Shown: positions 1-19,499 of the stretch, piece after piece
Layout: every line of letters starts with the position of its first letter
Position numbering within the stretch: the first letter of the stretch is position 1
Assembly: GCF_000147715.2 (NCBI RefSeq)
Contig: NC_017934.1
Location: 2,542,001 to 2,606,000, forward strand
DNA length: 64,000 nucleotides
Direction: 5' to 3'
Source: Mesotoga prima MesG1.Ag.4.2
GTDB taxonomy: Bacteria; Thermotogota; Thermotogae; Petrotogales; Kosmotogaceae
The notes under the pieces: generated by a model
Databases searched by the model: none
What the model saw: the letters and a program-made list of their open reading frames with translations, nothing else
Told to the model about the DNA's origin: nothing
Program-made: the position numbers and the translations under genes

Positions 1-30
1 TGATGATTGAGCTGTTGGATTTCGCTACCC

Positions 31-190
31 CAAACTTGATTCGGGATCCGAGCTTCTGAGGAACCGTGGTTGGGGTTAGCGGGTAAGGGGTCGGAAAGAG
101 CAAAAGAACTGATACTTCGTTGAACGGTTCTCAGTTGATCGATAAGAAGAATCGAGATTCTGAATCAAGTTCAGATGAAGGATTGTGATG
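31..190. repeat. Diverged copy of the 212-bp intergenic repeat
   Basis: This stretch follows the order of the tandem unit seen at 44.8-47.7 kb: an imperfect palindrome around the 'cttgattcggga' core, then 'gtggttggggttagcgggt', then 'agagcaaaa', then 'gattctgaatcaagttcagatga'. It is much more diverged than the tandem copies. No coding potential is seen from 1 to 250. Confidence 0.7.
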
Positions 191-253
191 TCTTCTTGAT
201 TGATAGACGCCGTCATCAAAGAAGTGATTTCTCGAGGTAGAGTAATCTTTTGT

Positions 254-294
254 AAAAAGCACCGGCAAAGATTTCCACCTTTGCCGGTGTTTTT
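254..294. terminator. Bidirectional rho-independent terminator
   Basis: A perfect 11-bp stem (260-270 with 279-289, caccggcaaag/ctttgccggtg) and an 8-nt loop are flanked by an A-run on the left and a T-run on the right, so it can end transcripts on either strand. On the minus strand it follows the stop codon of the 319-5226 gene by about 25 bp and is its natural terminator. Confidence 0.88.
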
Positions 295-318
295 GCGCGT
301 CTTGCTCTGATAGCCGAT

Positions 319-3300
319 TCAGTTTCCGCAGTATCTTAACGTTTCCATTATTCTTTCCAGTACAGGCTCGTACTGAGTCCAGAAGCCTGTCTTCGCAGCA
401 AAACCGACTGAAAGACAGTATCCATCGTTTCCCGGTTCGTAGACGTGAGAGTAGATAGATCTCTCAACATTCCATTGCGCAGCCGTAAGCTCTATCCATA
501 TTCCCGGCTCCCCGGCGATTAGCCTTTCGAATTCTTCGACAACTTCCATGTTGAGTCTTGTTTCCTCTTCTTCTTTTTCGAGGAACTCCGGTTTCACTTT
601 AGCGATGACGAAGAAGATGTTCTCTGAGCCGGGTTCAGCATCAAACCATCTGCTTACCGGCTTCGAATTCTCATCGCCCTCCAGTTCGAGTCTGTACCCC
701 TCCGAATCATCGAACCAGGAAGAAGGTACTTCATAGCACAGTCCGTCCGAAGAGACTTCTATCCATTCCGCAACAACGGTCTCTTGAACTACCTCTTGAG
801 CATTCTCAGAGGGCACTTCCTCACTTTCGGACTCATTCATGAGCTCTTCCTTTCCTATCCATGGATCGAATGATACATTGTCGCTAACGGGATTTCCTGT
901 TCCCCGGTTGTTCAGAGAAGGATGATGCGGCCCCGATATATCGCCCCACCAGCAATCGACGGCGACGGCTTCAACCGGGCTATCGTTTCTAATACCATAA
1001 ACGACGTTTCCCTCGAAGACGCAATCAACAAATTCCAGAGGAACTGTCTGCTGAGATGAGATACCCACTCCTGTCGAGTTTTCCAGGAATGATAAGCCGG
1101 AGACTTCCAGATGGCCCGAACTACTGCTTACCAGAAGACCATCACCGGCAATTCGAGAGATCACTGAATTTCTTAAGATTAGAGATCCTGAACCTGTCTT
1201 GAAGACACCTGCCTTGTCTCCGTAGCCTGCATACATTATTCTGGCCCATTCGAGTTCTGCGCTGCCCTCTTCCTGTATGTAGATCGACCTCCACCAACCG
1301 GGTTCAGGAAGCGAGGCATCACCATCATGATTTGCGTCTCCTCCCGTAGAATCGTCGCGCCAGTCGGTAAGTGTTATCGGTGCCTGTTCAGTTCCTAACA
1401 TCTTAAGACTTCCCGAAATCCTTAGTCCCCTATTGGCGGCAAACTTTAGGACCGTTCCGGGTCTTATCTCGAGAACTGCCCCTTTTGTGAGAGTCAGTTC
1501 TCCAGAGATGTAGAATGAATAATCACTACTCAAGCCGAAAACAACATTACTGTTTATCTCGCCTCCATCTACGTACACATCGGTACCGTTTTCTTCAAAT
1601 GCGGCGAGAGTGTCATCGAAAGAAACGTTTGTAGCCAATCGAACTGCAGCGCCATTTCTAAGGAACACGTTGTTTGACAGCTCCAGATAGGAGTATCCCG
1701 AAAGAAGCTTGAGTGCTTCTCCAGAAACATCATGGATATTGGAGTTGGTCAGTGTGAATGATCCCGAACCGGCTCTGACAATACCATTCTGCGAATAGCC
1801 GATATCGACGAAGTCCAATTCAGCCGATCCGGATTCTCTAATATTTATAGAGTTCCACCAGCCCTTGACCGGCAAGGTTGCATCTGCATCTCTATTTGAG
1901 TCGCCGCCTGCGGAATCATCACGATAATCAGTGAAGAAGACGGGTTCTTCTCCAGTTCCAAGCGCGATGAGCTCCCCATCGACAGTGATCAGAGAGTTTT
2001 GAGCCATCTTAACTACAGTTCCCGGCTTGATCTCAAGTCTCGCTCCCACTGAGATTGAGGTGCTGCCGCTGAGAAGTAAGGAGAGGTGCTTAGGGACTCT
2101 CCAGACAACACTACCGCTAATAGTTGCCGCTTCTACATAAATGTCTTTGTTGTTTTCAGAGAAGTAGGTTTCGTCATCTAAAATCAGAGAAGCGTTTGCG
2201 ACTGTCCTTACACCAGTATCATTGGATAGGAAGACGGATTCTTCTACCGAAACCCCGTCCGTCCTGCAGTTCAATCCGGCTTCGGAGTTTTCAGAGAAAG
2301 TCGATCTGCCGATCTTCACTCCTCCGGCAGCATTATCTGCTCTGAAGCCATCCCCTGCAACCTTCTCAATTACCGTATCTGTCATCGAAACCGCGCCAGT
2401 ACTGCTCTTTAGAACCCCAGATCGATCACCGTATCCGGCGAATCGAATCACACAATGTTCGAAAGTCGCCGTGCCGTCAGTCATAATACCTATCGATCTC
2501 CACCAGCCAGGAGCGGGGGTAGTTTCTCCACCATCTCTGTTCGCGTCTCCACCAACAAGATCATCCCTCAAGTCGGTGAAGTAGATTGGCAAATCCGCTT
2601 CTCCCAATGCCTGGAGACTTCCGTAAACAAGGATTCTGTTGTTCTGTCTGAATTTGATCACAGTTCCCGGAAGAATACTTAGCGAGGCACCGGCCGAGAT
2701 GCTCACATCGCCTGTTATTACCATGGAGTAATCGCCATCCGATCCCCACGAAACTGTACCGGTTATGGCGCCACCGTCCAATTGAATATCAGTGGAGTTG
2801 CCTTCGAACCTTGTTGTTACATCGGCAAATGAAGCGTTTATGCCCAACCTGACTCCAATTGTGTTGTAAGAATACTCGTTCTGAAAGTGCTCAAAGGACG
2901 AATAACCCGAAGATAGGCGTAGACCATCTCCAGAAGTGTGCGACAGAACAGAATTCGATATTCTTAGAGAGCCTGCACCGCTCTTCAATATCGCAGCCCC
3001 GTCGGAACGACCGGCATATGCAATTGTGCACCAGTCGAAAATGGCCTTACCTTCATTACGTATGTTGATAGACCTCCACCAGCCCGCTTCTGGCAAAGAA
3101 CCATCACCCGACAACGCCCCTCCAACCGAGTTGTCACGAGTCTCAGTGAAAAAGATCGGGTTATCCTCGGTTCCGCTCGCCATTAGTTCTCCATCTACTG
3201 CAAGGAATGCGTTCTGAGCTATCTTGATTACGCTGCCAGGCCTAATGGTAAGGCTTGCCCCCGATGCAACCGAAACACTGCCGTTCATCAATATGGATAT

Positions 3301-5226
3301 ATTACTGGGTGCCCCCCACGTTACTCTGCCTGAAATTGCGGCAGGATCGATCTGTATTGCAATATCGTTCCCATCAAAATAGGTCTGTTCATCAACCTCG
3401 ACCGAACAGCCCGCCGGGAGTCTTATCCCAATTCCGTTGGAAGATATGGTCAGCGCCTCAATGTGGACGCCGTCGGTTTTGTAGTACAGTCCAGCACCGG
3501 TATTATAAGATAGTGTCGAATACTTCACTTCCGCACTTCCTGCGGAATTGTCAATCCTCAATCCGTCACCGGTAACGTCGTGAATCGTGCTGTTGAGAAT
3601 AGAAAAGGTGCCAGTGCTGCTCTTTATCACTCCTGCCATGTCACTTACTCCAAGATACCCGATTGTACAATGCTCAAAGTTCGCGGTACCTTCTGTAAGC
3701 AGGCTTATGCTGCGCCACCAGCCGCTTGCAGGAACGGTGGCTTCGCCGTCTCTGTTTGCGTCCCCTCCGACAAGATCATTTCGAAAGTCTGTGAAGTATA
3801 TGGGGGCGCTTTCTTGACCGGCTGCCTCAAGATGACCGTAGACGAGGATTCTGTTGTTCTGCCTAAGCTTGATTACAGTTCCGGGCATGACTTTCAGTGA
3901 AGCTCCCGCAGCGACAACTACGTCGCCGCCCGTTACCATTGAATACTCGCTGCTTGCACCCCATACCACACTGGAGCTAATCGTCCCGCCGTCAAGATGA
4001 ACATCGAGATCGTTACTTTCAAAACGGGAAGTGAAATCAGAGAAAGATGAATTTATTCCCAATCGAATACCAACCGAGTTATACCCGAAATAGTTGTCCG
4101 AAGATTCAAATAGAGAGTAGCCTGCAGCTACCCTAAGCCCGTCCCCGGAACTTCTTACAATCGCTGAATTGGATATCCTGATAGAACCCGTTCCGCTCTT
4201 GAGCAGAGTTGCACCATCCGATCTACCTCCGTAGGCCAGAGTACACCATTCAAGAACGGCCGAGCCTTCATTCTGGATGTTGATAGATCTCCACCATCCC
4301 TCTTCAGCGATCGTCTCACTGCTATCTCTATTAGCATCCCCTCCGACCGTATCATCGCGCAAATCGGTGAAGTAGATCTGCTGATCTTCTTCTCCTCTTG
4401 CCTGAAGTTGACCGTAAACCAAAAACCTGTTGTTTTGTCTCAGTTTGACCACCGTTCCCGGAGCTATTTCTAGCGATGCTCCTGCGTTTACAGAGACATC
4501 TCCGGTAACCGTCATGGAGTAGTCACCACTGGCTCCCCATTTCACAATCCCTGTGATCGCTCCGCCGTCAAGATGGATGTCCACCTGGTTCAAAATAAAG
4601 GTCGAACTCTGATCAGAGTAAGATGCGTTTATTCCGACCCTAACCCCGTTTGTGTTATACATGAAGGTATTGTTGATACTCTCAAAGGAGGAGTACCCTG
4701 CCGAAATCCGAAGGCCATCTCCCATAACCCTTCTAACAACGGAATTGACGAGTCTCAGAGAACCCGATCCCGCTTTAAGAACGCCGGCCCCCGTTGACGC
4801 TCCTGCAAAGGAGACTTCGCACCACTCAAGAAATGCCGAACCTTCTCCCTGAATGTTGATCGATCTCCACCAACCTGGTACCTGAGCAGTACCTGTGAAA
4901 ACAATCGGGTTTTCCTCGTTGCCAACGGCCCTCAGCGTACCGTTAACGATGAAATCCTGATTCTGAACTATGAGGACTTCCACGCCGGGCTCTATTGTGA
5001 GGATCACATTTGGAGAAATCGTTATTGTCGCCCTAACCAGGTACGGGCTACGATCGATTGTCCAGACCGTGTCCTCGGCTATAGTCCCGGAAACCTCTGT
5101 GGGAGGTTTGTAATTGTCAACAGGTGTTTCAATGTTCTCTGAAAAAAGTAATCCAAAAGGGATTAGAAGCATTATCAGCAGCCAAGATCTAACGGACCCT
5201 AAAATGTGCACCAAGACTCGCTTCAT
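319..5226 (-). CDS. Large secreted right-handed beta-helix repeat protein
   Basis: About 1635 residues. The ATG at 5226 is chosen because GGAGGTG lies 7 nt upstream and the next residues form a signal peptide or membrane anchor (MKRVLVHILG..., then LLIMLLIPFGLLF). The body holds seven copies of a long module. Each has a WW pair in a 'GWWRSI' motif, usually after a 'DDSVGGDANRDG'-like acidic stretch, then 'GSGSLRISNSVI' and 'SGDGLRI' strands, then 'ASLEIRPGTVIKLRQNN'. These short parallel strands and Asn/Gly-rich turns are typical of pectate-lyase-like beta-helices. The last rung ends with the 'DCWWGDISGPHHP' motif common in such proteins. An acidic linker and a C-terminal domain of roughly 110 residues, which I cannot name, follow. 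A surface or extracellular polysaccharide-binding role is likely, but no catalytic site is evident. Monocistronic, ending at the hairpin at 254-294. Confidence 0.9.
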   Translation of the reverse strand: MKRVLVHILGSVRSWLLIMLLIPFGLLFSENIETPVDNYKPPTEVSGTIAEDTVWTIDRSPYLVRATITISPNVILTIEPGVEVLIVQNQDFIVNGTLRAVGNEENPIVFTGTAQVPGWWRSINIQGEGSAFLEWCEVSFAGASTGAGVLKAGSGSLRLVNSVVRRVMGDGLRISAGYSSFESINNTFMYNTNGVRVGINASYSDQSSTFILNQVDIHLDGGAITGIVKWGASGDYSMTVTGDVSVNAGASLEIAPGTVVKLRQNNRFLVYGQLQARGEEDQQIYFTDLRDDTVGGDANRDSSETIAEEGWWRSINIQNEGSAVLEWCTLAYGGRSDGATLLKSGTGSIRISNSAIVRSSGDGLRVAAGYSLFESSDNYFGYNSVGIRLGINSSFSDFTSRFESNDLDVHLDGGTISSSVVWGASSEYSMVTGGDVVVAAGASLKVMPGTVIKLRQNNRILVYGHLEAAGQESAPIYFTDFRNDLVGGDANRDGEATVPASGWWRSISLLTEGTANFEHCTIGYLGVSDMAGVIKSSTGTFSILNSTIHDVTGDGLRIDNSAGSAEVKYSTLSYNTGAGLYYKTDGVHIEALTISSNGIGIRLPAGCSVEVDEQTYFDGNDIAIQIDPAAISGRVTWGAPSNISILMNGSVSVASGASLTIRPGSVIKIAQNAFLAVDGELMASGTEDNPIFFTETRDNSVGGALSGDGSLPEAGWWRSINIRNEGKAIFDWCTIAYAGRSDGAAILKSGAGSLRISNSVLSHTSGDGLRLSSGYSSFEHFQNEYSYNTIGVRLGINASFADVTTRFEGNSTDIQLDGGAITGTVSWGSDGDYSMVITGDVSISAGASLSILPGTVIKFRQNNRILVYGSLQALGEADLPIYFTDLRDDLVGGDANRDGGETTPAPGWWRSIGIMTDGTATFEHCVIRFAGYGDRSGVLKSSTGAVSMTDTVIEKVAGDGFRADNAAGGVKIGRSTFSENSEAGLNCRTDGVSVEESVFLSNDTGVRTVANASLILDDETYFSENNKDIYVEAATISGSVVWRVPKHLSLLLSGSTSISVGARLEIKPGTVVKMAQNSLITVDGELIALGTGEEPVFFTDYRDDSAGGDSNRDADATLPVKGWWNSINIRESGSAELDFVDIGYSQNGIVRAGSGSFTLTNSNIHDVSGEALKLLSGYSYLELSNNVFLRNGAAVRLATNVSFDDTLAAFEENGTDVYVDGGEINSNVVFGLSSDYSFYISGELTLTKGAVLEIRPGTVLKFAANRGLRISGSLKMLGTEQAPITLTDWRDDSTGGDANHDGDASLPEPGWWRSIYIQEEGSAELEWARIMYAGYGDKAGVFKTGSGSLILRNSVISRIAGDGLLVSSSSGHLEVSGLSFLENSTGVGISSQQTVPLEFVDCVFEGNVVYGIRNDSPVEAVAVDCWWGDISGPHHPSLNNRGTGNPVSDNVSFDPWIGKEELMNESESEEVPSENAQEVVQETVVAEWIEVSSDGLCYEVPSSWFDDSEGYRLELEGDENSKPVSRWFDAEPGSENIFFVIAKVKPEFLEKEEEETRLNMEVVEEFERLIAGEPGIWIELTAAQWNVERSIYSHVYEPGNDGYCLSVGFAAKTGFWTQYEPVLERIMETLRYCGN

Positions 5227-5309
5227 GCGGCACCTCCGAGATGTCCCTGGCTCTGTAGAGCTTTGATCGGAGAGCAACTGTATTCCTGCCAAAGCCATCG
5301 TATGAACAG

Positions 5310-5315
5310 ATTATA
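5310..5315 (-). promoter_or_regulatory. Putative -10 element for the beta-helix gene
   Basis: On the minus strand TATAAT lies about 85 nt upstream of the start at 5226. I do not see a convincing -35 box at 16-18 bp, so the call rests on the -10 alone. Confidence 0.35.
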
Positions 5316-5603
5316 CATTCGTCTCGAAGCAATACCTTGCAGAAGTGAACAGATAAAACAACGCATGAAAGAAACTACAGAAGAAACTTTTGCTGATAGC
5401 AAATGAAGCCAGACCCTCTGACTCAATCTCATTGCCACGCTCTTCTCCGCAAACTCGTTTACAGGCAAATCGTAGACCTAACGCGAAGCAATACTGATTC
5501 CGAAGAACCTGTGAATTCGAAAGTATCGCAGTTCTACAGAAAGAATGCTTCTGTAGACATCCTCAATGCTCAGTACTGCCGCAAACTGAGAAGCTGACGT
5601 TAA
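5316..5603. other. Intergenic stretch without a recognised gene
   Basis: This lies between the two leftward surface-protein genes. Short open frames occur but none has a ribosome binding site or recognisable product. Reading in frame past the stop of the upstream gene (5604) does not restore the missing papain-type Asn strand, so the 1021-residue protein really ends there. Confidence 0.5.
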
Positions 5604-8600
5604 TCAAAGAGAGCCGTTGAAATTGTCGTCGTAACCAACTATTGTGTTTGCGTGATTAGTATCGGGATAAATGTAAGTTGATGTGTTCCAGACGTCTTTC
5701 TCTGTAAGGTTCTTGTACTGATTGGCGTCTATTGAAACAGATACTAGATAACCCGCGGCGAGATAGGACTTGATAGTCAGTATGTCCTGATCCGTCCTTA
5801 CTGTCAAGTAGCTAATTACATTCATACCGTTCCTGTATCTTGGAGCTTCTCTCCATGCAGATTCGGAAGGCCACGAAGTGTGATCGCTCGTATCGTAAGG
5901 CATCTTTTCCCAGCTGCTGACTCCAACTCTCGACAACAGCTTCTGAGCATCAAGGTAAGATGAACCGCCGTCCTCACCATCATTAATCTGATGATAGATA
6001 AAGTCAGGACTGAATATCCTGTTCTGATACGAAGGAGTAGGTTCTCCGCCGTTTGTCCAGCTTGCGCCGCTGAGATCCCAGCCTCTATCCCTGGCTTCAT
6101 AGAAAGTGGAAGTATAATACCCATTTGAAAAGGCTACGCACGAGCCTTCGCCGCCCTGATCTCCTACGGGAGGAAAATACATCGAAACGGAATGGTCTAA
6201 AGTCGATGGTAAGCTTCCCTGGACTGAGAAGCCATCCATCAAATGCCAGGTCCTGGCGATTTCATCCCAATCGTCTTCTGAAGGAGGACGCAAACCAGTA
6301 CCGTGTCCGTCAATAATCTCGTTGTAGTTTCTCCCTTCTTCGAGGACCCCTAGGTCTGCTTTCAGAAGTTCGAGCATTTCCGTTGACAATCCTTGCCTTA
6401 TGCTTGAAAGGTAATACGAAGAGCCCTGTGCTGCAACAACATTATGAATCTGCACGTTCACGAATGAGTTATTTACGGTGTTCTTTGGTGTCTCGGTCGA
6501 AGTGTATATCGCCACAGGAGTTCCAGATTGATAATTGTCGAATACTTCCACGGAAAAGAACTCTATACTTCCCGTTGTGAAGTCACTGAAGGAATCAAAT
6601 ACCTTCAGGAACAATGTCTCATCTTCAAAGGGTAGGAGCTCGGTGATATCCAGCACCATCTTGTTGTCCGGGAAAGGATGCTGCCCTCCTCTATAGCTAT
6701 AGTCATCGAATCTCTTTTCTCTTATGGGAGAAGAAGGGTTGCCGATCCCAACCGTTATCTCGCAATCATCTCTTATTCCATGAGAAATCTCGAATACTGC
6801 AATTGCTCTCGGTTCGTAGTCCTCTCTTGGGTCTATAGTGAAGCAGCGGACCTGGTTTTCCTTCATTGCTTCGTATGTAATGTACAGGAAGCCGTCAGGA
6901 ACGTTTTCCCAGCCACCTACTCCCCATGAATTAACGACCTTGAAGGCCCCCATCTCCTGCGGCGGAATACTGTATGTAAAACTCCAAAGAGCCTCTTCGG
7001 AATACGCTCCCCTATCGTCACGTCCTCTGACTCTGAATGAGTGGCTTCCCTCTGAGTAACCACTCCACGTATAGTTCGTCCCGAGTCCAAAATCGACCCA
7101 ATCACCGTTGTCTTTCCTGTATTCATACTTTGCTATCGTGCCATCTGAGTCGCTGCCTGTCCATGAAAACGAGTTGCTTGACACGTATATATCGCCTTCA
7201 AGACCGCCAGTCTTTGTAATCACCGGGGGCTGATTCGCATAGCTGTAAGTGAATGACCAGATAACTATCTGCGAATACGCGCCTCCATCATCCAGAGCGC
7301 GAACCTCGAAGACATGATTTCCTTCTGAGTATCCCCTCCACGTATAACTCAAGTCAGTACCTACACTTATCCAGTCACCGCGGTCCTTTCTGTATTCATA
7401 CCGTTCTATCGATCCATCGGAATCGCTTCCCGTCCAGGTGAATGTATTGAGGTACCTGGTAGTATCGCCTTCAATTCCACCGGTCTTTGTTACTGTAGGA
7501 GCATTATTGTGCGGTACATATTCGAAATTCCAGACAAGAGTTGGAGAATACAATCCTTCGTCGTCTCTAGCCCTAACCTCAAAAGAGTGATTCCCGATAG
7601 AGTAATCGCCCCAGACGTATTCGTTTTCCATTCCATTGACGATCCAGGCCCCAGTATCTTTTCTGTATTCGTATTCAACTATTGTTCCATCGGGATCATT
7701 GCCCGACCAGGAAAAGGCGTTTGTGGCGTTATCTGTCTCTCCTTCAAGACCACCGGTCTTTGTCACTGCTGGTGGCACATTGGGAGGGTCGTAGTTGAAC
7801 GACCACACGATTGTCTCCGAATAGGCCCCTTCATTGTCGAGAGCCCTTACTTCAAATGTATGCTCGCCTTCGGAATAACCGTTCCATGTGTATTCATCGG
7901 AAAGCTCTGTATCGATCCACTCTCCCGAGTCTTTTCTCAGTTCGAATCGCACTATTTCACCATCTGGATCGTTTCCGTTCCACGAGAAAGTGTTACTCGA
8001 CTCTTCCGTTTCTCTTTCGACTCCTCCGGTCTTTGTTACTACTGGGGGCACGTTGGGAGGGTCGTAATTGAAGATCCAGATAGTAATTTCCGAATAGGCC
8101 CCTTCATTGTCGAGCGCCCTCACTTCAAACGTGTGTTCGCCTTCGGAATAACCGTTCCATGTGTATTCATCGGAAAGCTCTGTATCGATCCACTCTCCCG
8201 AGTCTTTTCTCAGTTCGAATCGCACTATTTCACCATCTGGATCGTTTCCGTTCCACGAGAAAGTGTTACTCGACTCTTCCGTTTCTCCTTCAACTCCTCC
8301 GGTCTTTGTCACTGCTGGAGGCACGTTGGGAGGGTCGTAGTTGAACGACCACACGATTGTCTCCGAATAGGCCCCTTCATTGTCGAGAGCCCTTACTTCA
8401 AATGTGTGTTCGCCTTCAGAGTATTCGCTCCAGGTATACACGGTTTCGTTTCCGTTGCTCTCCCAGTCAGCGGAGTCCTTTCTATACTCATATCTGATAA
8501 TTGAACCGTCGGTGTCACTTCCCGACCATAGGAATGTACAGCTGCTTGTTGTCACTTTGCCGTTAGCTCCATCGAGCTTTACAACTTCTGGCGATTTGTT

Positions 8601-8669
8601 CATGGCCGGGCATCCGAGCAGCAGGAAAATCAAGGACAAAGACAGAACGAATAGGATATATTTCTTCAA
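5604..8669 (-). CDS. Lipoprotein with six Ig-like modules and a permuted papain-like (C1) domain
   Basis: 1021 residues from a TTG at 8669, with a GGGGGAGAG ribosome binding site just upstream. The signal peptide ends in the lipobox LLGC (Cys20). Six Ig/PKD-like modules of about 91 residues follow, each with 'PPxVTKTGG', 'WSGSDxDG', 'YEYRKD' and 'SEGxHxFEVRALDxEGAYS' strands. Then comes 'GAFKVVNSWG' (Asn580), which is the Asn strand of papain-like peptidases, and a jelly-roll-like region to about residue 760. The Cys motif 'GDQGGEGSCVAFS' (Cys844) and the His motif 'NHANTIVGYDDN' (His1006) come last. The protein stops 15 residues after that His. Family order is Cys-His-Asn, while here it is Asn-Cys-His. 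All three residues are present, so activity is possible. Modules 2 and 3 are nearly identical at DNA level. Confidence 0.88.
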   Translation of the reverse strand: MKKYILFVLSLSLIFLLLGCPAMNKSPEVVKLDGANGKVTTSSCTFLWSGSDTDGSIIRYEYRKDSADWESNGNETVYTWSEYSEGEHTFEVRALDNEGAYSETIVWSFNYDPPNVPPAVTKTGGVEGETEESSNTFSWNGNDPDGEIVRFELRKDSGEWIDTELSDEYTWNGYSEGEHTFEVRALDNEGAYSEITIWIFNYDPPNVPPVVTKTGGVERETEESSNTFSWNGNDPDGEIVRFELRKDSGEWIDTELSDEYTWNGYSEGEHTFEVRALDNEGAYSETIVWSFNYDPPNVPPAVTKTGGLEGETDNATNAFSWSGNDPDGTIVEYEYRKDTGAWIVNGMENEYVWGDYSIGNHSFEVRARDDEGLYSPTLVWNFEYVPHNNAPTVTKTGGIEGDTTRYLNTFTWTGSDSDGSIERYEYRKDRGDWISVGTDLSYTWRGYSEGNHVFEVRALDDGGAYSQIVIWSFTYSYANQPPVITKTGGLEGDIYVSSNSFSWTGSDSDGTIAKYEYRKDNGDWVDFGLGTNYTWSGYSEGSHSFRVRGRDDRGAYSEEALWSFTYSIPPQEMGAFKVVNSWGVGGWENVPDGFLYITYEAMKENQVRCFTIDPREDYEPRAIAVFEISHGIRDDCEITVGIGNPSSPIREKRFDDYSYRGGQHPFPDNKMVLDITELLPFEDETLFLKVFDSFSDFTTGSIEFFSVEVFDNYQSGTPVAIYTSTETPKNTVNNSFVNVQIHNVVAAQGSSYYLSSIRQGLSTEMLELLKADLGVLEEGRNYNEIIDGHGTGLRPPSEDDWDEIARTWHLMDGFSVQGSLPSTLDHSVSMYFPPVGDQGGEGSCVAFSNGYYTSTFYEARDRGWDLSGASWTNGGEPTPSYQNRIFSPDFIYHQINDGEDGGSSYLDAQKLLSRVGVSSWEKMPYDTSDHTSWPSESAWREAPRYRNGMNVISYLTVRTDQDILTIKSYLAAGYLVSVSIDANQYKNLTEKDVWNTSTYIYPDTNHANTIVGYDDNFNGSL

Positions 8670-8875
8670 GTTGCTCTCCCCCTATTAAATGCTCCAAACA
8701 GAGCTGGCTAAATAACAAGTCTGCACATTCAAGAAACAGGTGAGGTCAATCCAATCGTTAACTACATACATGACAGATGGATTTCAAAAGAACCGTCAGA
8801 ACGACTTCATATGAGTAGTTTATCATCTGAAGCATTCAAAGGGTCTTCTCGAAATGTCATTTCCGCTACCGGTAG

Positions 8876-9731
8876 TTATCTGCCGGCGTTCTTGACGAAG
8901 GAATTATCGAGTAGTTCCCTGAAAGCAAGTTCAAGCTCCTCATTTTTGTTTATAACTATGAGGCCTTCCCATGCTATGGGCTCTTTCAAAGGTTTTCCCG
9001 AAAACAGAAGAAATCTCATTCCCTTCTGCCGGCTTTGGCCCAGAACAGCTCACCCTCACCGAAGAAAAACCGCGTTTTCGTTGGCTTCAGATTGGCCAGG
9101 ATCAAAACTCCCACTACCTTGAAGAATGTATATGAAAAGAGTGGTGCGACTCTCAGACTCGTATAACCATTCCTTCCCTGCATCGACCCACACGTCAAGA
9201 TATGTGGCTTTCACGTACCTGCCTTCAAAAGCTCCTGCCGATTCCTTTTAAGACCCGCCTATTACTCGTATTCTTACGCATTCTTCAGTTACAATCGAAC
9301 GTTTTCACTTCTTATATCACCGTATCTCGGGTCAGTCATCTTATCCTTTGCCGGAAGATTCAACCACAACTGAACCCCAAGCATCCTCTCAGCTGACTCA
9401 GGCATCTCCTGATGGATAATTCCCGAACCCGCGGTCATCCACTGACAGTCAACATCTAGTATCTCTCCTTTGTTACCATGGCTGTCACCGTGTTCGATAA
9501 TCTCGCTAATAAGTTAAGTTACGGTCTCGATACCCCCTGTGAAGATGCCAAGGGAAGCCCTTGACATAATCCTCCGGATCAGTGGAATCAAAGGCGTCAA
9601 GCAATAGAAAGGGGTCGAAATCCTCAACGTCTCTATGACCCAAAACCCTAACGAGTTTTACTCCGGCCCTATCAACAGAGGCACACCTCTGTCAAGATCT
9701 TGCTGATTTTCCGTACTCTGCTCACTGTCAT
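8876..9731 (-). pseudogene. Decayed pirin-family gene
   Basis: In changing frames on the minus strand I can read, in the right order, most of a pirin (cupin-fold, metal-binding quercetinase-like protein). From an ATG at 9731 come 'AGVKLVRVLGHRDVEDFDPF', 'LLDAFDSTDPEDYVKGFPWH', 'EHGDSHGNKGEILDVDCQWM', 'TAGSGIIHQEMPESAERMLG', 'VQLWLNLPAKDKMTDPRYGD', 'RYVKATYLDVWVDAGKEW', and finally 'PIAWEGLIVINKNEELELAF' to a TAA at 8876-8878. Several frameshifts and in-frame stops separate these blocks, so no functional product is expected. The family motifs are established knowledge. The block boundaries are approximate. Confidence 0.82.
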
Positions 9732-10227
9732 TTTCCTCTTAGCTCCGCGACGGATTTTCATACATCAATACTCAGAAGCCTATCGCAAAAATGGTATCTG
9801 AAGATCCCCAGTCTTGAATGACTCCCATCTGAACCCCATGATCTATTATCCTAGATAAGCCTGCAAGAATATCCTTGTTTATCAGATCAAAGACAATAGG
9901 AAGACCGGACCTTATCTGGTCCGGCTTTAAGGGATGGGGTGAGAAAGGTAATGAAGGTTTCCTCTGTCAGTTCTGCTGCGCCTGGTAATTAGTTGTCGCT
10001 AATTGTACTTCTATGTTTCATACTCGCCTTAGAGTTCTTCAGTTCATCTTCAAACAGATTATAAGAAAGGATTTTGGGAGTATTGTCGCAGAAGTATGGG
10101 AAAAGATGAGAGATAACCTGAAGTTGTTTTGTTTTCTCGGCAAACCTTATTGAAATAGCATAGATTGCACAGAAAGGAAAGATTAGAAATTCGCATATCA
10201 CCGCGTAGATAGTGATTAGATCCCCTT
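9732..10227. other. Intergenic region with a short hairpin and possible gene debris
   Basis: A hairpin with a 7-bp stem (9905-9911 with 9918-9924, ccggacc/ggtccgg) lies here but lacks a clean T-run. On the minus strand about 9780-9890 reads as an open peptide ending 'DWGSSDTIFAIGF' and a stop, possibly the end of a lost gene that I cannot name. Nothing else convincing is seen. Confidence 0.4.
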
Positions 10228-10251
10228 AATGCATCATAAATAAATCTACTC
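10228..10251 (-). repeat. Solo IS-end-like repeat (inverted relative to 14787 and 14822)
   Basis: On the minus strand this 24-mer is GAGTAGATTTATTTATGATG followed by CATT. It differs at only a few positions from the two direct copies next to the transposase remnant at 14787-14810 and 14822-14845. It lies 60 bp upstream of the HD-GYP gene with no transposase beside it. Confidence 0.7.
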
Positions 10252-10311
10252 AAAGAGATCCCTTTGCATTCGTTAATTGTTTTTTCCGGCACGGTTGAGT
10301 AAGATTTTAAT

Positions 10312-12009
10312 ATGAAGAATCCAGCGCTCAAAGTTGCGTTACTATACGTTGTATTTGGTGTTATATGGATCTTGTTTTCTGATATGATCGTCGATTTGAT
10401 GTTTGTCGAAAAAGATCTTGTTGCTCATGCTCAAACCTACAAGGGCTGGGCCTTTGTTATCTTCAGTGGGATTCTCTTCTACTTTCTCATTTACCGTGAG
10501 TTCAGCGAGAAAAACAAGACTCAACTCGAACTCGTTAAGCAGAAAGACCTTTCCGACGCAGTCCTCGACACGGTGGGCGTTTTTGTTGCAGTATTAGATA
10601 GCGAAGGGGTCATTGTCTTCACAAATGAGACTTTTGAGGAGATTCTTTCACTCAAATCGGAGGATATAATTGGAAAGAACTGCTCCGAAGTCTTCGCATC
10701 CCCTGATCTTGCAAACTGGATCGAGAACACCGCAAGCAAGACACTGGATAGAGAGATAGAGAACTTCTATGAGGCCGATTTAGAAACCTCGTCGACTACT
10801 CTACACATCCGATGGGCATTGAGCAATCTTACAAGCTGGAGAGGGGAACATGATTACTTCGTTTTGACAGGTGTAGATATAACTCAACTGGTAGAATCAG
10901 AAAGAAGCGCAACGCATAGATTGGCAAATATTCGCGCACTGCACGAAATAGATATGGCCGTCAGCTATCACCTCGAACTTGAAAAGATGCTGGATGTCTT
11001 TCTCGAAAGATTGATCTCGAGGCTTGGCGTAGATGGCGCCGATGTCTTCTTAATTGACGAAGAAAGAAGTGTTCTGAGATTCGCTCATGGAAAGGGAATA
11101 GTCACTGGAGAAATGGACTTCAGAGAGCTTCCAATGGAAGGAACTATACCTAGTTCGGTTGCTTCGTCGGGAAAGCCTTACTCCGGTCCGTTGGACACCT
11201 CTAGCAATCCCGAATGCCCGAGGCTCAAGAACCTGATAGATATGAAAGTGAAGGACTATCATGCCGTACCCCTTGAAACGAGAGGAAAAATTCTGGGAGT
11301 CCTTGAAACATTCGACATGATGCAAATTCACAGAGACAGTGAATGGAATGATTTTCTGCAGATGCTTGCGGCACAAGCTTCACTAGCGATAGATGTTGCT
11401 CTGATGATAGATAATTTGAAAGACAGCAACAGGAAGATCGCAGAAGCTTACGATCAGACTTTGGAAGTTCTTGTAGGAACACTGGAAATGAGAGACATGA
11501 ACACCAAGAAACACTCAAGGAGAGTAGCCGATCTTACAGTTTGGCTTGCCGAGAAAATGGGGGCATCGGAAGAAGAAATAGAAAACATGTACAGAGGCGC
11601 CCTGCTGCACGACATTGGGAAGATTTCTATTCCGGACAGCGTGTTACTGAAGGAAGGACCTCTATCTGAAGACGAATGGAAGGTAATGAAAACTCATCCG
11701 ACAACGGCGTATGAAGTGTTGTCCCAAGTCGAGTACCTTAGACCTTCGCTGGATATTCCTTACTGTCACCACGAGCGTTGGGACGGAAGCGGATATCCCC
11801 GCGGACTTAAAGGAGAAGAGATTCCTCTGGCTGCAAGGATATTTGCCGTTGTAGACGTTTATGACGCTCTGACTTCAGATAGGCCGTATAGAAAAGCCTG
11901 GAGCAAAGAGAAAACCGTAGAGTACCTTCTAGAGAACTCCGGAAAGCTATTCGATCCAGCCGTGATAGAAAAGTTTCTTGAGATATTGAGAGTCAGTTCA
12001 CCATCATAA
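10312..12009 (+). CDS. Membrane PAS-GAF-HD-GYP protein, probable c-di-GMP phosphodiesterase
   Basis: 565 residues. Two N-terminal membrane segments (about 7-27 and 45-62) are followed by a PAS domain (about 85-200), a GAF domain (about 215-360) and a C-terminal HD-GYP domain (about 375-560). The HD-GYP signature is complete: 'HSRRVADL', 'LLHDIGKISIPD', 'HHERWDGSGYPRGLKGEEIP' and 'ARIFAVVDVYDALTSDRPYR'. Family knowledge says such domains hydrolyse c-di-GMP using a bi- or trinuclear metal centre. The PAS and GAF domains suggest that a small ligand or redox signal controls it. The start is the ATG at 10312, although the upstream Shine-Dalgarno (GAGTAAGA) is weak. It stands alone and converges with the InlB-repeat gene. 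No GGDEF partner is in the window. Confidence 0.93.
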   Translation: MKNPALKVALLYVVFGVIWILFSDMIVDLMFVEKDLVAHAQTYKGWAFVIFSGILFYFLIYREFSEKNKTQLELVKQKDLSDAVLDTVGVFVAVLDSEGVIVFTNETFEEILSLKSEDIIGKNCSEVFASPDLANWIENTASKTLDREIENFYEADLETSSTTLHIRWALSNLTSWRGEHDYFVLTGVDITQLVESERSATHRLANIRALHEIDMAVSYHLELEKMLDVFLERLISRLGVDGADVFLIDEERSVLRFAHGKGIVTGEMDFRELPMEGTIPSSVASSGKPYSGPLDTSSNPECPRLKNLIDMKVKDYHAVPLETRGKILGVLETFDMMQIHRDSEWNDFLQMLAAQASLAIDVALMIDNLKDSNRKIAEAYDQTLEVLVGTLEMRDMNTKKHSRRVADLTVWLAEKMGASEEEIENMYRGALLHDIGKISIPDSVLLKEGPLSEDEWKVMKTHPTTAYEVLSQVEYLRPSLDIPYCHHERWDGSGYPRGLKGEEIPLAARIFAVVDVYDALTSDRPYRKAWSKEKTVEYLLENSGKLFDPAVIEKFLEILRVSSPS

Positions 12010-12032
12010 GTCGACGCAAAAACAATTATTCA

Positions 12033-13523
12033 TCATTTCTCGCATGAGCCTCCGCAATTACATCTGAGAACTGCTTGCGCAATAGTATCCCATTCAAGCG
12101 TTATAGTTATTTCCGGGACCTCATAGGTCGTTCCATCAACGAGCCATTCTTCAAAATGATATCCGGAATCAGGCGTCGCGCTTAGATCAACTGAGGATCC
12201 TTTATCGTAAACGTAGGTTCCTTCGGGAGGACTGACGGTCCCTCTTCCATATTTGTAGATCTCAAGAGTTACTTTCTCTGCTTTTTGCACAAACTCTGCC
12301 GAGACTGATTTGTCACGGTCCATGATAATCGAAGTAGTTTCGCTATCTGAATAAAAAGTACCGTCAAGGTACCAGGCCTCGAACTCCCATCCGTCTGCGG
12401 GAGTAGCCGAAAGGGGCACGGAGGTTCCCTCTATGTATGTGTGATCTCCGACCGGAGGACTGACCGAACCCTGACCGATTGGCTCAACCATTGTCAGGGT
12501 GAAAACTGTTGGCGGTTCTTCAACAAAAAACGCCTTAGCTGTCTTGCTGGCATTCATGGTGATCGTTATCTGCGAATTGTATGAGAAGAGAGCTCCATCT
12601 ATCTGCCAGAAATCAAAGTCCCAGCCGTTGGAAGGTGTAGCCACAAGGGTAACAACTGAACCCTCTTTATATATACTTATACCGACCGCAGGTTCGACAT
12701 TTCCGCTTCCGGAGGGCTCAAGCATTGTAAGCGTGTGTGTCTTACGGACAAAGACTGCCTTAACATTTCTATCGGTGTTCATTGTGAGTTCGGCTTCATG
12801 TTCAGAGGAATAGACTGCATCTTCAACAAGCCAGTGTTCAAAGAGCCACCCTTCTGCCGGTGTCGCTTGAAGTGTTAAAGACTTTCCTGCATCATACTTG
12901 TGATCTCCGACAGTCGGAGCAACCGCTCCCTGACCAATTGGTTCGTGCATAGACAGAGTGACCGAAGCCACAGGCTCCTCGTTAAAGAACGCCTCTACTA
13001 TCTTATCTGCGTCCATAGACAATTCCGTCTCTTCTTCACTCGAATAGAAAACGCCGTCAACCTGCCATCGGTCGAATTCCCAGCCTTCTGTCGGAGTAGC
13101 TGAAAGACCGACCAGGGTAGAATAATCAAACTGATACTCTCCCGGTACCGGTGAAATACTTCCCTCTCCTTCTTCATCTTCCATAGTTAAGGTAACCGGT
13201 TGTCTCGAGAAAAAAGCTTTGATTGTCTTTTCGGAATCCATTTCCAGTTTCGTCTCTTTCTCATTTGAATAGAATTCCTCATCTACTTCCCATCGGTCGA
13301 AGTCCCACCCATCATCGGGCATGGCCTGAATATCTACAGACGTGTTGATCAAGTATTTATGATTCCCGGGAAGGGGCTGAACCTCGCCTCCCTCATCTGG
13401 CTCGAGCATAGTTAGAGTTACGGTCTTGAAGATACACTCAGTAGATAGGAAGATAAAAGAAATTGCTGCAACGAAGATCATAAGTTTCCGAAACCTGAGT
13501 TTTCTATTCCTGTAGGTTCTCAA
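12033..13523 (-). CDS. Secreted InlB B-repeat-type protein with six repeats
   Basis: 496 residues from a TTG at 13523 preceded by GGAGG at 7 nt. Upstream in-frame ATGs lack a ribosome binding site and would bury the signal peptide. The N-terminus has basic residues and a hydrophobic stretch (LMIFVAAISFIFLSTEC). The Cys could be a lipidation site, but Glu at -1 is not a standard lipobox. Six modules of about 75 residues follow, each 'VTLTMxEPxGxGxVxPxxGxxxY', 'LSATPxxGWEFDxW', 'DGxFYS' and 'TxxMDxDKxVxAxF'. This is the divergent InlB B-repeat/Flg_new_2 fold of surface proteins. The C-terminus is Cys-rich (CNCGGSCEK). Likely displayed on the cell surface, with binding partner unknown. Confidence 0.88.
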   Translation of the reverse strand: MRTYRNRKLRFRKLMIFVAAISFIFLSTECIFKTVTLTMLEPDEGGEVQPLPGNHKYLINTSVDIQAMPDDGWDFDRWEVDEEFYSNEKETKLEMDSEKTIKAFFSRQPVTLTMEDEEGEGSISPVPGEYQFDYSTLVGLSATPTEGWEFDRWQVDGVFYSSEEETELSMDADKIVEAFFNEEPVASVTLSMHEPIGQGAVAPTVGDHKYDAGKSLTLQATPAEGWLFEHWLVEDAVYSSEHEAELTMNTDRNVKAVFVRKTHTLTMLEPSGSGNVEPAVGISIYKEGSVVTLVATPSNGWDFDFWQIDGALFSYNSQITITMNASKTAKAFFVEEPPTVFTLTMVEPIGQGSVSPPVGDHTYIEGTSVPLSATPADGWEFEAWYLDGTFYSDSETTSIIMDRDKSVSAEFVQKAEKVTLEIYKYGRGTVSPPEGTYVYDKGSSVDLSATPDSGYHFEEWLVDGTTYEVPEITITLEWDTIAQAVLRCNCGGSCEK

Positions 13524-13738
13524 AGAAAAACCTCCGAAATACATATTTATGTTGCTCGGTTCATGGTCTTCTCTCAAACGTATTATATTCCCGAGCATTT
13601 GTGAAAAAATCATTATCAACAGTCATTCAGTCATTGGTTGCCCTTATCCATTAGTGGTTGCAATCCAATCTGTTCATAAATGCTCACGGGAAAGAGAAGA
13701 ACGTCAGCGTCCACGCATGCTTTTGTAGAAGTCTTATA

Positions 13739-14792
13739 ATGAAGGCAATCACAAGATATTTTAAGTTGAGAAGAAAGATAGGAGTTGATGCTCAGTTCTT
13801 TGTGGAATCTACCTCGGAAGAGAGAACCGATGTGCGTTTAGTTAGACTTTCATCCATTTTTTTTGATGAAGCAAGCCTCTTACAAAACTCTCTAATAGAT
13901 CACTGCAGATATCTGATACTATGGAGGCTCGAACGAAGAATTATTGGCAATCAAGATTGTAGTAGGTGCGTTTGCTCGAACTCAGAACGGATTGGAAAAC
14001 TGAGACCTCCAAAAGACTCGGGACGATCAATTTGTTGCGCCGGAGCGATTATCAAATCCACCAAGAGAAAGGATCGTCAGTCTATCCAGCTATTATTTCA
14101 GGTTAATGATTGATTCTGATAGGGGTAATAGCTCGGGAAAATTCTGTTATAGCCTGAATATGGTGGATGTTGCCAGTGGTTGGAGTATCGTTGCACCGAT
14201 AAGGAACAAGGCTCAAAGATGGACTCTCGAAGCTATAATTGCATTGAGAGAGTTACTTCCTTTTCCTCTTTTGGGAATTCATTCCGACAATGGCTCGGAG
14301 TTCATTAACGCTCATTTGTATAAGTATTGTTTGGATGAAAGATTGGTCTTTACCAGAAGCCGGAGTTACAACAAGAACGACAATCCTCATGTGGAACAAA
14401 AGAACTGGTCTTTGGTCAGAAGGGCCGTTGGCTATTACAGATATGACACTTTGGAGGAACTGAGTATCTTGAATGAGCTATATGAAAGCTTGAATCTCTA
14501 CAACAACCATTTCCAGCCTACTCAAAAGATGATTGAAAAGACCAGAGATGGTACAAGGATAGTGAAGAAATACGACAAGTTCGCTACTCCTTATGAAAGA
14601 GTGCTTAACTCTCCCTGGATTGACTGTACAAAAAAAGATGAGCTTCGTAAGGTTCACGAAGCCCTAGATTTATACAAACTCAAGAGTAATATAGCACATT
14701 CTCAAGAATCACTGGTTGACATACAGATAATGAAGTCCAAATCTAACTCAAAGGGAGGTGTTCTTAATCTCCTTCATCTCGACTTCGAGTAG
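13739..14792 (+). pseudogene. Broken DDE (rve) transposase
   Basis: The 3' part is open from 14106 to 14792 (228 residues) and carries an integrase catalytic core: 'FCYSLNMVDVASGW', 'HSDNGSEFINAHLYKYC' and 'NDNPHVEQKNWSLVRRAVGY'. The DNG aspartate and the later Glu are present. The segment that should hold the first catalytic Asp is damaged ('MIDSDRGNSSGKF'). Upstream, 13739 starts 'MKAITRYFKLRRK', which resembles the N-terminus of such transposases, and a piece around 13905-13950 resembles the middle ('LILWRLERRIIG'), but large parts are missing and frames change. Two 24-bp repeats follow directly, the first overlapping the stop codon, as expected for the IS right end. Not functional. Confidence 0.8.
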
Positions 14793-14810
14793 ATTTTATT
14801 TTGATGCATT
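14787..14810 (+). repeat. IS right-end repeat, copy 1
   Basis: 24-mer GAGTAGATTTTATTTTGATG followed by CATT. Its TAG is the stop codon of the transposase remnant. A near-identical copy follows 35 bp downstream. Confidence 0.75.
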
Positions 14811-14821
14811 AACTCTCTCTT

Positions 14822-14845
14822 GAGTAGATTTAATTATGATGCATT
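14822..14845 (+). repeat. IS right-end repeat, copy 2
   Basis: 24-mer GAGTAGATTTAATTATGATG followed by CATT, ending four bases before the 3' end of the IclR gene. With copy 1 it forms a direct pair typical of multiple transposase-binding sites at an IS end. Confidence 0.72.
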
Positions 14846-14848
14846 GCC

Positions 14849-15604
14849 TCATTGCTGTAATCCATGCCCAAGTGCTGAAGAGATCCTTGACACAACCTTC
14901 TTGAGGAGATCGGAGTATTTCTTCATAACTTCCTCTTCCATCCGGAAGATAGGACCGGATATGCTTATCGACGCTACAACTACGCCCGATGAATCAAATA
15001 TTGGAGCTCCGACACATGCAATACCGTCTTCATTCTCCCCCTTATCGAAGGCCGTCCCTCTTGATCTTATCCTTTCCAGTTCTTCCCTGAGCTTGGCTTT
15101 GTCTGTTATTGTCTTCGAAGTCTGGGGAATAAGGTCAAGAGTGTCAATAAGTCCTTCGCGATCAGCCTCGGGAAGAAAGGCAAGTATCGCCTTTCCCACG
15201 GCGGTACAGTAGAGAGGCGCACGTTTTCCTATGTATAACTTGGTGTGGAGCGACTTAAAGCTTTCGAAGCCTTCAATCGAGACAACCTCCGTTCCGTCGA
15301 GTATGCCCATGTGTATCGTTTCTCCAGTCTGAAGGTGGAGTTTCTCCATTTCGGCAAAGGCCACATCCTTCAGTTTCATTGAAGAGAGATAAAGACTTCC
15401 TAGCTCAAAAAGCTTGATCCCTATTCTATATGTGGGTGTCTGGCTATCCTTTTTAAGAACATGTTCTTTGCAGAGGGCCTCCGCGATTCGATACACGGTT
15501 GCCTTGGGCAAACCGCTCTTTTTAGTCAGATCATCAAGACTCAGTCTCGATTCTTCAAGACTGAATGAACTGAGAATTTTGACGATCCTTTCAACACTCT
15601 GCAT
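14849..15604 (-). CDS. IclR-family transcriptional regulator
   Basis: 252 residues. The ATG at 15604 has GAGGGG 6 nt upstream, and homology begins there (MQSVERIVKILSSFS). The N-terminal winged helix-turn-helix (about 1-70, 'LSLDDLTKKSGLPKATVYRI') is followed by the IclR effector-binding domain ('GETIHMGILDGTEVVSIEGF', 'APLYCTAVGKAILAFLPEAD', 'GIACVGAPIFDSSGVVVASI'). It is the last gene of the leftward aldolase-TRAP cluster, 26 bp after dctM, so it probably controls that cluster in response to its substrate or breakdown product. Palindromes at 19485-19519 are candidate operators. Confidence 0.94.
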   Translation of the reverse strand: MQSVERIVKILSSFSLEESRLSLDDLTKKSGLPKATVYRIAEALCKEHVLKKDSQTPTYRIGIKLFELGSLYLSSMKLKDVAFAEMEKLHLQTGETIHMGILDGTEVVSIEGFESFKSLHTKLYIGKRAPLYCTAVGKAILAFLPEADREGLIDTLDLIPQTSKTITDKAKLREELERIRSRGTAFDKGENEDGIACVGAPIFDSSGVVVASISISGPIFRMEEEVMKKYSDLLKKVVSRISSALGHGLQQ

Positions 15605-15630
15605 ATAAACCCCTCGACTATGATCTGACC

Positions 15631-16926
15631 TTAATGCGCATACCCAAGCAATCTTGGAAGCCACAAAACGAAATCGGACCAGTAAGTAATTATTACAAGT
15701 CCCATAACTTCTATCGGTATCCAATATTTTAGCATCTCTTTGAAGACCTTTCCGACGGGAGTTTTGCTGATAGCACTAGTTATGAAACCGGTTTGTCCGT
15801 AAGGAGGCGTATCCAGCGCAAGCATAAGGTTGAAAGTGGTTACGATTCCGAAATGAACGGGGTCTATCCCTGCAGCCCTCACAAGTGGAAAGACGATCGG
15901 TATAATTACCAGCTGTATGACCGATACGTCGAAGAACATTCCAAGGATGAAGAAGAGAACATTAACACTCAAAAGAAGCACCCAGGCACTTGACAGAAGG
16001 CCCATATCCACGAATGCATTAGTGAGCAACAGCGGTATCTCTTCTCTTGCTAGGACATATTTCACAACAAAGGCGCCGGCAATCATGAAGCTTATTGCGC
16101 CAACGTTGTACACTGTCTTTAGCATTATCTTTCGTAGCTTCTTCAATCCAAGCGTGCGATAAATGAAGATGCTAACGAGAATTGAATATGCAGCCAGTAC
16201 CGCCGCCGATTCAGTCGGTGTGAATATGCCGCCATATATTCCAGCAAGCAAAATGACTGGGGCGAGCAAAGCCGGGAACGACCTAACGAAACTCCTGGCA
16301 ATTACCTTGAGTGGGTATCTCTGCCCTTTGGGATAGTTCCTTTTCTTTGAGAGGTACAAAGCCATACCGGCCTCGATAAAACCCAGAAAGAGCCCCGGAA
16401 CAATTCCCGCCAGAAATAGGTATCCGAGCGAAGTCCCTGTCAGCATAGCATAGATAACCATGGGGATACTGGGAGGGATCAGCGGCGAAATCGTTGCCGA
16501 AGCGCACGTTACCGCGCAGGAGAATGGACCGTCATAACCATCGTCCATCATCGCTTTTATCTCTATTGTTCCGAGACCTGAAACATCAGCTATTTCCGAT
16601 CCGCTCATTCCCGCAAAGATAATGCTGGCGCCAATGTTTGCGTACGCAAGTCCACCCCTTACACCTCCCAAGAGTTGCTTCAAAAAGCCAAAAAGCCTGT
16701 CAGTAATCTCAGTATCATTCATAACGTTCGCGGCAAATATGAACATGGGAACCGCAAGGAGAACGTCCTGGGCCCTCAGTTCGATTGCCATTATGTCTAG
16801 GAAGATTCCCAGATCCATTCCGGAAGTAATGAAGTAGGCAAAGCCCCCCATGATCATCCCAAAGGCTATCGGATACCCCAGAGCGAAGGTTGCACCAAAT
16901 ATAATAAAAAAGAGTATCAATCCCAT
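15631..16926 (-). CDS. dctM: TRAP transporter large permease (DctM)
   Basis: 431 residues with about 12 hydrophobic segments. The start ATG at 16926 has AAGGAGG 8 nt upstream. Family hallmarks include 'PMFIFAANVMNDTEITDRLF', 'GGLAYANIGASIIFAGMSGS' and 'CAVTCASATISPLIPPSIPM'. This subunit forms the ion-coupled translocation path of tripartite ATP-independent periplasmic transporters. It overlaps dctQ by 10 bp, which implies translational coupling. Substrate cannot be read from this subunit. Confidence 0.95.
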   Translation of the reverse strand: MGLILFFIIFGATFALGYPIAFGMIMGGFAYFITSGMDLGIFLDIMAIELRAQDVLLAVPMFIFAANVMNDTEITDRLFGFLKQLLGGVRGGLAYANIGASIIFAGMSGSEIADVSGLGTIEIKAMMDDGYDGPFSCAVTCASATISPLIPPSIPMVIYAMLTGTSLGYLFLAGIVPGLFLGFIEAGMALYLSKKRNYPKGQRYPLKVIARSFVRSFPALLAPVILLAGIYGGIFTPTESAAVLAAYSILVSIFIYRTLGLKKLRKIMLKTVYNVGAISFMIAGAFVVKYVLAREEIPLLLTNAFVDMGLLSSAWVLLLSVNVLFFILGMFFDVSVIQLVIIPIVFPLVRAAGIDPVHFGIVTTFNLMLALDTPPYGQTGFITSAISKTPVGKVFKEMLKYWIPIEVMGLVIITYWSDFVLWLPRLLGYAH

Positions 16927-17447
16927 GGTTCAACCTCCTTAGCAAATGTCTTCCCGGAAATGAGTTCCAGGAAGCTCTTCACTATCCAGATCACGTTGTG
17001 AATGAACGTCAATACCATGAAAATCGGAAAGCACATGAAGAGATATGTCCAGGGTATTCTGAGAACCTCTGATTTTATTATTTTGTAAAAGATCACATCG
17101 CCAAGCACTGGCCCCAGAGAGACCAGAAGGACTATGCAGAAGAAAAGGTCGAACACTATCTGGAGTATCAGCTGCACCTTCCTGGAAAACCTAAGGAAGA
17201 GAATATCGAACTTTATATGAGCATCGAACTTTCTTGCGTAAGGGGCGCCCAGGAATATCGTCCAGATGAAACTATATTGCGCTATCTCGAATAGCTCCGG
17301 GGAGGGACTGCTGAATACATACCTCAAAATCACCTGGAAGAAAATGCTGAGGAACAGAAGCCCGAGAAAAATAGTCCCGCCCCAAGATTCAATTAGATTC
17401 AGCAGAATTTGTAATGTCTTCAAAAGCGACAAGAATATCTTTTTCAT
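16917..17447 (-). CDS. dctQ: TRAP transporter small permease (DctQ)
   Basis: 176 residues with four membrane segments. The ATG at 17447 follows GGGGG at 5 nt. A TTG four codons earlier is also in frame but less likely. 'WGGTIFLGLLFLSIFFQVIL' and 'APYARKFDAHIKFDIL' fit the DctQ family, in which the Arg/Lys and H-x-x-x-D loop after the second helix is typical. It lies between dctP and dctM and is the membrane partner of both. Confidence 0.93.
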   Translation of the reverse strand: MKKIFLSLLKTLQILLNLIESWGGTIFLGLLFLSIFFQVILRYVFSSPSPELFEIAQYSFIWTIFLGAPYARKFDAHIKFDILFLRFSRKVQLILQIVFDLFFCIVLLVSLGPVLGDVIFYKIIKSEVLRIPWTYLFMCFPIFMVLTFIHNVIWIVKSFLELISGKTFAKEVEPWD

Positions 17448-17470
17448 GACAACCCCCAAAACGATACCCC

Positions 17471-17492
17471 GGACCGGTTGTCTTCCCGGTCC
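17471..17492 (-). other. Intercistronic hairpin between dctP and dctQ
   Basis: A perfect 7-bp stem (ggaccgg 17471-17477 with ccggtcc 17486-17492) is extended by three more pairs across one bulged base. There is no T-run, so it more likely protects or processes the dctP message than terminates it. Such hairpins often allow more binding protein than permease. Confidence 0.55.
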
Positions 17493-17512
17493 AGGGTAAC
17501 TAGCTCATCTTT

Positions 17513-18514: not shown

Positions 18515-18549
18515 CGCCAAACCCCCTTTCGGTTTTTTGTTCCTGAAAG

Positions 18550-19467: not shown

Positions 19468-19484
19468 AAATACGCCTCCTAATA

Positions 19485-19499
19485 TTTCATTTAATGAAA
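19485..19499. promoter_or_regulatory. Palindromic operator candidate 1 (aldolase-TRAP-IclR cluster)
   Basis: TTTCATTTAATGAAA is a perfect 7+1+7 palindrome 18 bp upstream of the aldolase start, next to its ribosome binding site. IclR-family operators are often AT-rich palindromes of this size with TTTC/GAAA ends. Confidence 0.6.

Follow-up and report, generated by a model that had tools for sequence, protein, structure and literature searches.

Papain-like peptidases of family C1 (PF00112, MEROPS C1A) are defined by a set of Gln, Cys, His and Asn active-site residues and by the linear order Cys-His-Asn. Circular permutations are known elsewhere among papain-like proteins, namely in the YaeF/YiiX, LRAT and PPPDE families and in some deubiquitinases, and in the cases described, which belong to other branches of the superfamily, it is the Cys helix or different strands that have moved (PMC3142127, PMC10318531). 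In a 2023 survey of the papain-like superfamily, the cluster that contains C1 is described as keeping all core elements in canonical form and permutations are found in other clusters (PMC10318531); permutation goes unmentioned in a phylogenomic study of C1A published in that year, which leaves multidomain prokaryotic C1A proteins out of consideration (PMC10380794). Two solved structures are relevant as bacterial reference points: xylellain (PDB 3OIS), the nearest solved bacterial fold to the protein described here, and the surface-associated Cwp84 of Clostridioides difficile (PDB 4CI7), which consists of a propeptide, a C1A domain and a lectin-like sandwich, and in which the propeptide wraps around the sandwich (PMC4089489).

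Here we analyse a 64,000-nucleotide stretch of the Mesotoga prima MesG1.Ag.4.2 chromosome (the window) that encodes a 1021-residue protein in which the catalytic motifs run Asn580, Cys844, His1006. We conclude that the protein very probably arose by circular permutation of a C1 peptidase together with its sandwich partner, giving an N-terminally lipid-anchored and probably surface-acting peptidase. The gene begins with a TTG codon preceded by a strong ribosome-binding site, and its product has a signal peptide that ends in a lipobox Cys at residue 20 (LLGC), as in bacterial lipoproteins (Table 1). A first-pass annotation of the locus had given the right coordinates for this gene, which lies on the minus strand, had reported the motif order with the right residue numbers and had correctly put the end of the protein (residue 1021) 15 residues after the His. 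Two adjacent copies of the stalk repeats (~7760-8360, minus strand) are near-identical in DNA, indicating a recent repeat duplication, and sister permuted genes differ in total length and hence probably in repeat number.

Table 1. Features of the permuted protease gene and its downstream neighbour (window coordinates).
Feature	Position	Strand	Basis
Permuted papain-like lipoprotein gene, complete, 1021 aa	5604..8669	-	ORF; relatives across the whole permuted span
Ribosome-binding site GGGGGAGAG ahead of TTG start	8674..8682	-	Sequence
Signal peptide with lipobox LLGC, residues 1-20 (Cys20)	8610..8669	-	Sequence; lipobox in all permuted genes with visible N-terminus
Stalk of ~six Ig/Y_Y_Y-type repeats, residues 24-570	6960..8600	-	PF07495, E 9e-19
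Asn strand GAFKVVNSWG, residues 574-583, with Asn580 (codon 6930-6932) and Trp582	6921..6950	-	Asn invariant
Beta-sandwich accessory domain, C2/PLAT-like, ~residues 611-746	6432..6839	-	Predicted strands; Foldseek neighbours; place after Asn in unpermuted relatives
Pro-region-like segment LGVLEEGRNYNEIIDGHGTGLRPPSEDDW, ~residues 763-820	6210..6383	-	N-terminal in unpermuted relatives; in this protein, where the old ends meet
Cys motif QGGEGSCVAF, residues 838-847, with oxyanion Gln838 and nucleophile Cys844 (codon 6138-6140)	6129..6158	-	Invariant; PF00112 positions 2-177
His motif NHANTIVGYD, residues 1005-1014, with His1006 (codon 5652-5654)	5628..5657	-	New C-terminus 15 residues further on
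Right-handed beta-helix surface protein, 1659 aa, long internal repeats	319..5298	-	PF13229; directly downstream of permuted protease

The most direct evidence for a permutation comes from relatives that carry the same blocks in ordinary order. A contig scan found 38 such proteins, homologous in both halves (best E values 1e-52 in the Asn-sandwich part and 3e-95 in the pro-Cys-His part, with up to ~50% identity in both halves for the closest), in Bathyarchaeota, Thermoplasmatota, Methanobacteriota, Neomarinimicrobiota, Bacteroidota, Cloacimonadota, a Lokiarchaeon and Verrucomicrobiota. In these multidomain C1 relatives (L063-L102) a signal peptide is followed by a conserved pro-region (LK..GVYEEG.NYN.II.GHGTGL.PPTEEEW), the Cys and His motifs, a loop of ~10-20 residues, the Asn strand and a beta-sandwich, whereas the permuted proteins run from the Asn strand through the sandwich and the pro-region to Cys and His, with the pro-region exactly at the joint and the new C-terminus within the former His-Asn loop. 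The junction is particularly clear when L065 (GYDDNFGPYTE...YGAFKVVNSWG) is set against the window protein, which reads GYDDNFNGSL-stop at one end and EMGAFKVVNSWG at the other; by homology, GAFKVVNSWG corresponds to the Asn strand that comes after His in the unpermuted relatives. As judged from this block order, one rotation of the chain accounts for every block. The comparison with homologues in the unpermuted order, which the first-pass annotation had proposed, thus bears out its reading of a circular permutation as opposed to a broken enzyme, a reading with which the purifying selection described below also agrees. Its "jelly-roll-like insert" fares less well: a beta-sandwich is indeed present, but the unpermuted relatives carry it right after the Asn strand, and it is therefore no insertion but an accessory domain usual in this protease lineage. 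Nor is a jelly roll borne out: outside the proteases, the closest Foldseek matches are sandwiches of C2/PLAT type (pancreatic lipase, E 7e-4), and the domain is better called C2/PLAT- or lectin-like.

The two forms also differ in how they are attached. The catalytic head is N-terminal in the unpermuted relatives, which have no clear lipobox (L098 is a possible exception) and several of which end in a C-terminal anchor, either a transmembrane tail or a T9SS sorting tail; in the permuted proteins the head is C-terminal, and a lipobox is found in every gene whose N-terminus could be seen, so that the permuted form is anchored at the opposite end. A profile tally over the fetched ORFs gave 31 with the Asn part first and 66 with the Cys part first (these counts are redundant) and none with duplicated whole halves; the usual route to a permutation, by tandem duplication followed by loss at both ends, is therefore an assumption. 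No close unpermuted relative was found in the M. prima genome, whose own family C1 gene (C1:2120k, that is, on contig C1) has no match to the lineage profiles.

At least 21 distinct permuted genes are known to us: the window gene, its paralogue in the M. prima genome, and 19 elsewhere in Thermotogota, Spirochaetota and one Cloacimonadota metagenome-assembled genome (MAG). Of 103 Thermotogota genomes, 12 have matches across the whole permuted span, at 14 loci in total; the 462-residue span is 42-96% identical in the 11 other genomes, and all 14 proteins stop 8-15 residues after the His; the contig scan and follow-up searches added six Spirochaetota genes and one Cloacimonadota MAG contig, and over all 21 genes the natural stop lies 8-20 residues after the His. 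The gene on the Cloacimonadota contig (L056:3282-4631) has a Kosmotogales sequence as its nearest relative, and mis-binning or transfer is possible. The paralogue, which lies ~2.3 Mb away, matches the window protein across the permuted span at 61% identity and shares its motif order and abrupt C-terminus, but carries different N-terminal domains. In a tree of both halves, 15 of the 18 permuted rows form one well-supported group, and a single origin of all 18 is accepted (p-AU 0.461); the tree of the Asn part needs one change of order. The best tree of both halves, in which the Spirochaete branches are long, needs two, but with one clade not rejected we set several independent origins aside. 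Gln, Cys, His and Asn are present without exception in 21 of 21 permuted genes, in line with the first-pass claim that the catalytic residues are kept. Against the three closest relatives dN/dS is 0.056-0.102, low in both halves and lowest in the Cys-His half (0.047-0.077); the permuted gene is under purifying selection.

Profile scores tell the same story of a C1 peptidase in the wrong order. PF00112 is not reported for the full-length window protein, scores just above the curated cut-off on its native permuted region (21.4 versus 20.7 bits) and reaches 25.1-33.1 bits in permuted relatives in native order, with no match for the diverged member L023. When the halves of four proteins were rejoined in silico, scores rose from 21.4 to 32.2, 31.1 to 44.3, 25.1 to 38.0 and 33.1 to 48.0 bits, a gain of 11-15 bits, and the end of the match moved from profile position 177/178 to 204-206, through the Asn strand; with a shuffled Asn half the window protein scored 23.8-25.7 bits (versus 32.2) and L017 34.9-35.2 bits (versus 48.0). 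The order-dependent Pfam model thus scores only the Cys-His half of such proteins, which explains their poor annotation. Because the profile and the active-site residues (invariant in 21 permuted genes) agree with C1 while the order Asn580-Cys844-His1006, alike in all permuted genes, does not, the accurate name is a circularly permuted derivative of C1 and not a regular member. With papain the protein shares the Gln-Cys-His-Asn set and the fold over the equivalents of papain residues 1-170; it differs in its Asn-Cys-His order, in having a sandwich and a pro-region inside the permuted chain and in ending directly after the His strand. It shares with YaeF/YiiX, LRAT and PPPDE a circular permutation of the papain fold in which the catalytic residues are kept, but there the Cys helix has moved behind the His, whereas here Cys precedes His and the Asn strand has moved to the front; the Cys after His near the C-terminus that marks the permuted NlpC/P60-type (YaeF/YiiX, LRAT) and PPPDE proteins is not found (Cys844 lies before His1006), nor is any Pfam match to these families.

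AlphaFold predicts the permuted module with confidence (pLDDT 92.8, pTM 0.93), from an alignment that included fragments of unpermuted relatives, which added depth and carried no block order. An unpermuted relative is predicted equally well (pLDDT 92.2, pTM 0.92), and its secondary-structure elements are those of the permuted module, rotated in order. Residues 250-447 of the permuted model superpose on papain 1-170 (Z 13.2), ending just short of the papain Asn strand; the superposition is sequential, cannot align a displaced strand and bears neither way on the position of that strand. The match to xylellain has Z 16.6. In the unpermuted model the full papain domain is covered (Z ~21; Z 24.0 for xylellain). 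Cwp84, which is not permuted, resembles the unpermuted relatives in domain plan, but it is a distant structural match, with a Foldseek E of 3e-11 to the L069 model and a poor overall superposition (rmsd 13.9), so that the sandwich of the relatives is a candidate counterpart of the calcium-binding lectin-like domain that follows the protease domain in Cwp84-type enzymes.

The sequence comparison shows that the ancestral unit consisted of pro-region, Cys, His, Asn strand and sandwich, that a break in the His-Asn loop opened the chain, and that the old ends were joined, which gave the present order of Asn strand, sandwich, pro-region, Cys and His. If the propeptide wraps around the sandwich here as in Cwp84, the old ends would lie close together and the joint would be easy to form. 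Homology and the confident models suggest that, on folding, the Asn strand at the N-terminus lies back against the His strand at the C-terminus and so restores the Cys-His-Asn site, oxyanion Gln included. The convergence of Asn580, Cys844 and His1006 that the first-pass annotation had proposed as a check agrees with the confident model and with the papain superposition. The protein would be exported as a lipoprotein and held by its N-terminal lipid anchor, with the Ig-like stalk presenting the protease at its C-terminal tip; the order of these parts is read directly from the gene, and their exposure is a prediction. Because the pro-region is now internal, its cleavage on activation would be expected to yield a two-chain mature enzyme held together by the central sheet.

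How far could the data be explained otherwise? That the true gene is canonical, its apparent order being due to an assembly error or a chance NSWG motif, is vanishingly improbable: near-identical Ig-type repeats such as those in this gene can confuse assemblers, but the first-pass concern about an assembly error is ruled out by the paralogue at a distant locus and by 19 further genes in independent genomes with the same order, some on chromosome-sized contigs (G023, G434), and the Asn part is homologous over ~170 residues, far beyond a short motif. A hidden second Asn strand reached by programmed frameshifting was also rejected, as no NSWG-type motif lies within 900 bases downstream in any frame at 14 loci, the sole exception being one unrelated NAFG. 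That the permuted protein folds but has no catalytic activity and serves to bind at the cell surface is, we consider, very unlikely; catalysis has been lost in some papain-like proteins, but here the invariance of Gln, Cys, His and Asn in 21 genes from at least two phyla, and a dN/dS that is lowest precisely in the Cys-His half, argue for an enzyme.

A genuine permutation might also build its active site from two molecules, one chain lending its Asn strand to the His strand of a neighbour in a strand-swapped dimer or a surface chain; in our view this is very unlikely. The sequence data are equally compatible with pairing within and between molecules, and there is a flexible low-confidence link at residues 182-187 of the permuted model; against this, AlphaFold models the single chain with confidence along its whole length (pTM 0.93), and the propeptide of the (only distantly similar) Cwp84 wraps its lectin-like sandwich, so that the old ends would be near each other (PMC4089489). 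The window protein is most likely an active enzyme, anchored by an N-terminal lipid and bearing its catalytic head on the far, C-terminal end of an Ig-like stalk; its probable role is that of a cysteine peptidase at the cell surface.

The beta-helix gene adjoins the permuted protease in three genomes, and other Mesotoga copies of the protease lie near other beta-helix proteins; as a guess, the beta-helix neighbour might be a partner or substrate of the protease. Elsewhere in the window, a protein of six InlB B-repeats (PF18998) is encoded at 12036-13619 (minus strand), and the permuted paralogue (L002) has similar repeats in its stalk; stalk domains therefore appear to be swapped between proteins while the permuted head stays. 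Pirin-like stretches broken by frame changes mark a decayed pirin gene at ~8810-9640 (minus strand), and two sister genomes have intact pirin genes (PF02678) at this position (L146:3678-4562 and L147:11005-11895). An integrase-type transposase at 13655-14789 (plus strand) is split over two frames, probably as a broken insertion sequence. Identical matches ~86.5 kb apart in the same genome (C1:1792827-1793080 and C1:1879358-1879611) suggest that a region with Ig-type repeats was duplicated recently. An Rfam scan of window positions 1-20000 gave no match.

As the first-pass annotation had supposed, a C1 lipoprotein of this layout appears to be undescribed: we found no description of a permuted C1 enzyme in the literature, which, for a search of open-access papers, is weak evidence. 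The chances seem to us evenly balanced that these proteins are the first circularly permuted lineage inside C1, cut between the His and Asn strands, in which the head has moved from the N- to the C-terminus, the removable propeptide has become an internal linker and activation yields two chains, and that their living unpermuted relatives are close enough, at ~50% identity, to date and dissect the event. The family offers a clean natural permutation within the best-studied family of cysteine peptidases, and with both states at hand at ~50% identity the effects of permutation on folding, on inhibition by the propeptide and on activation can be tested directly.
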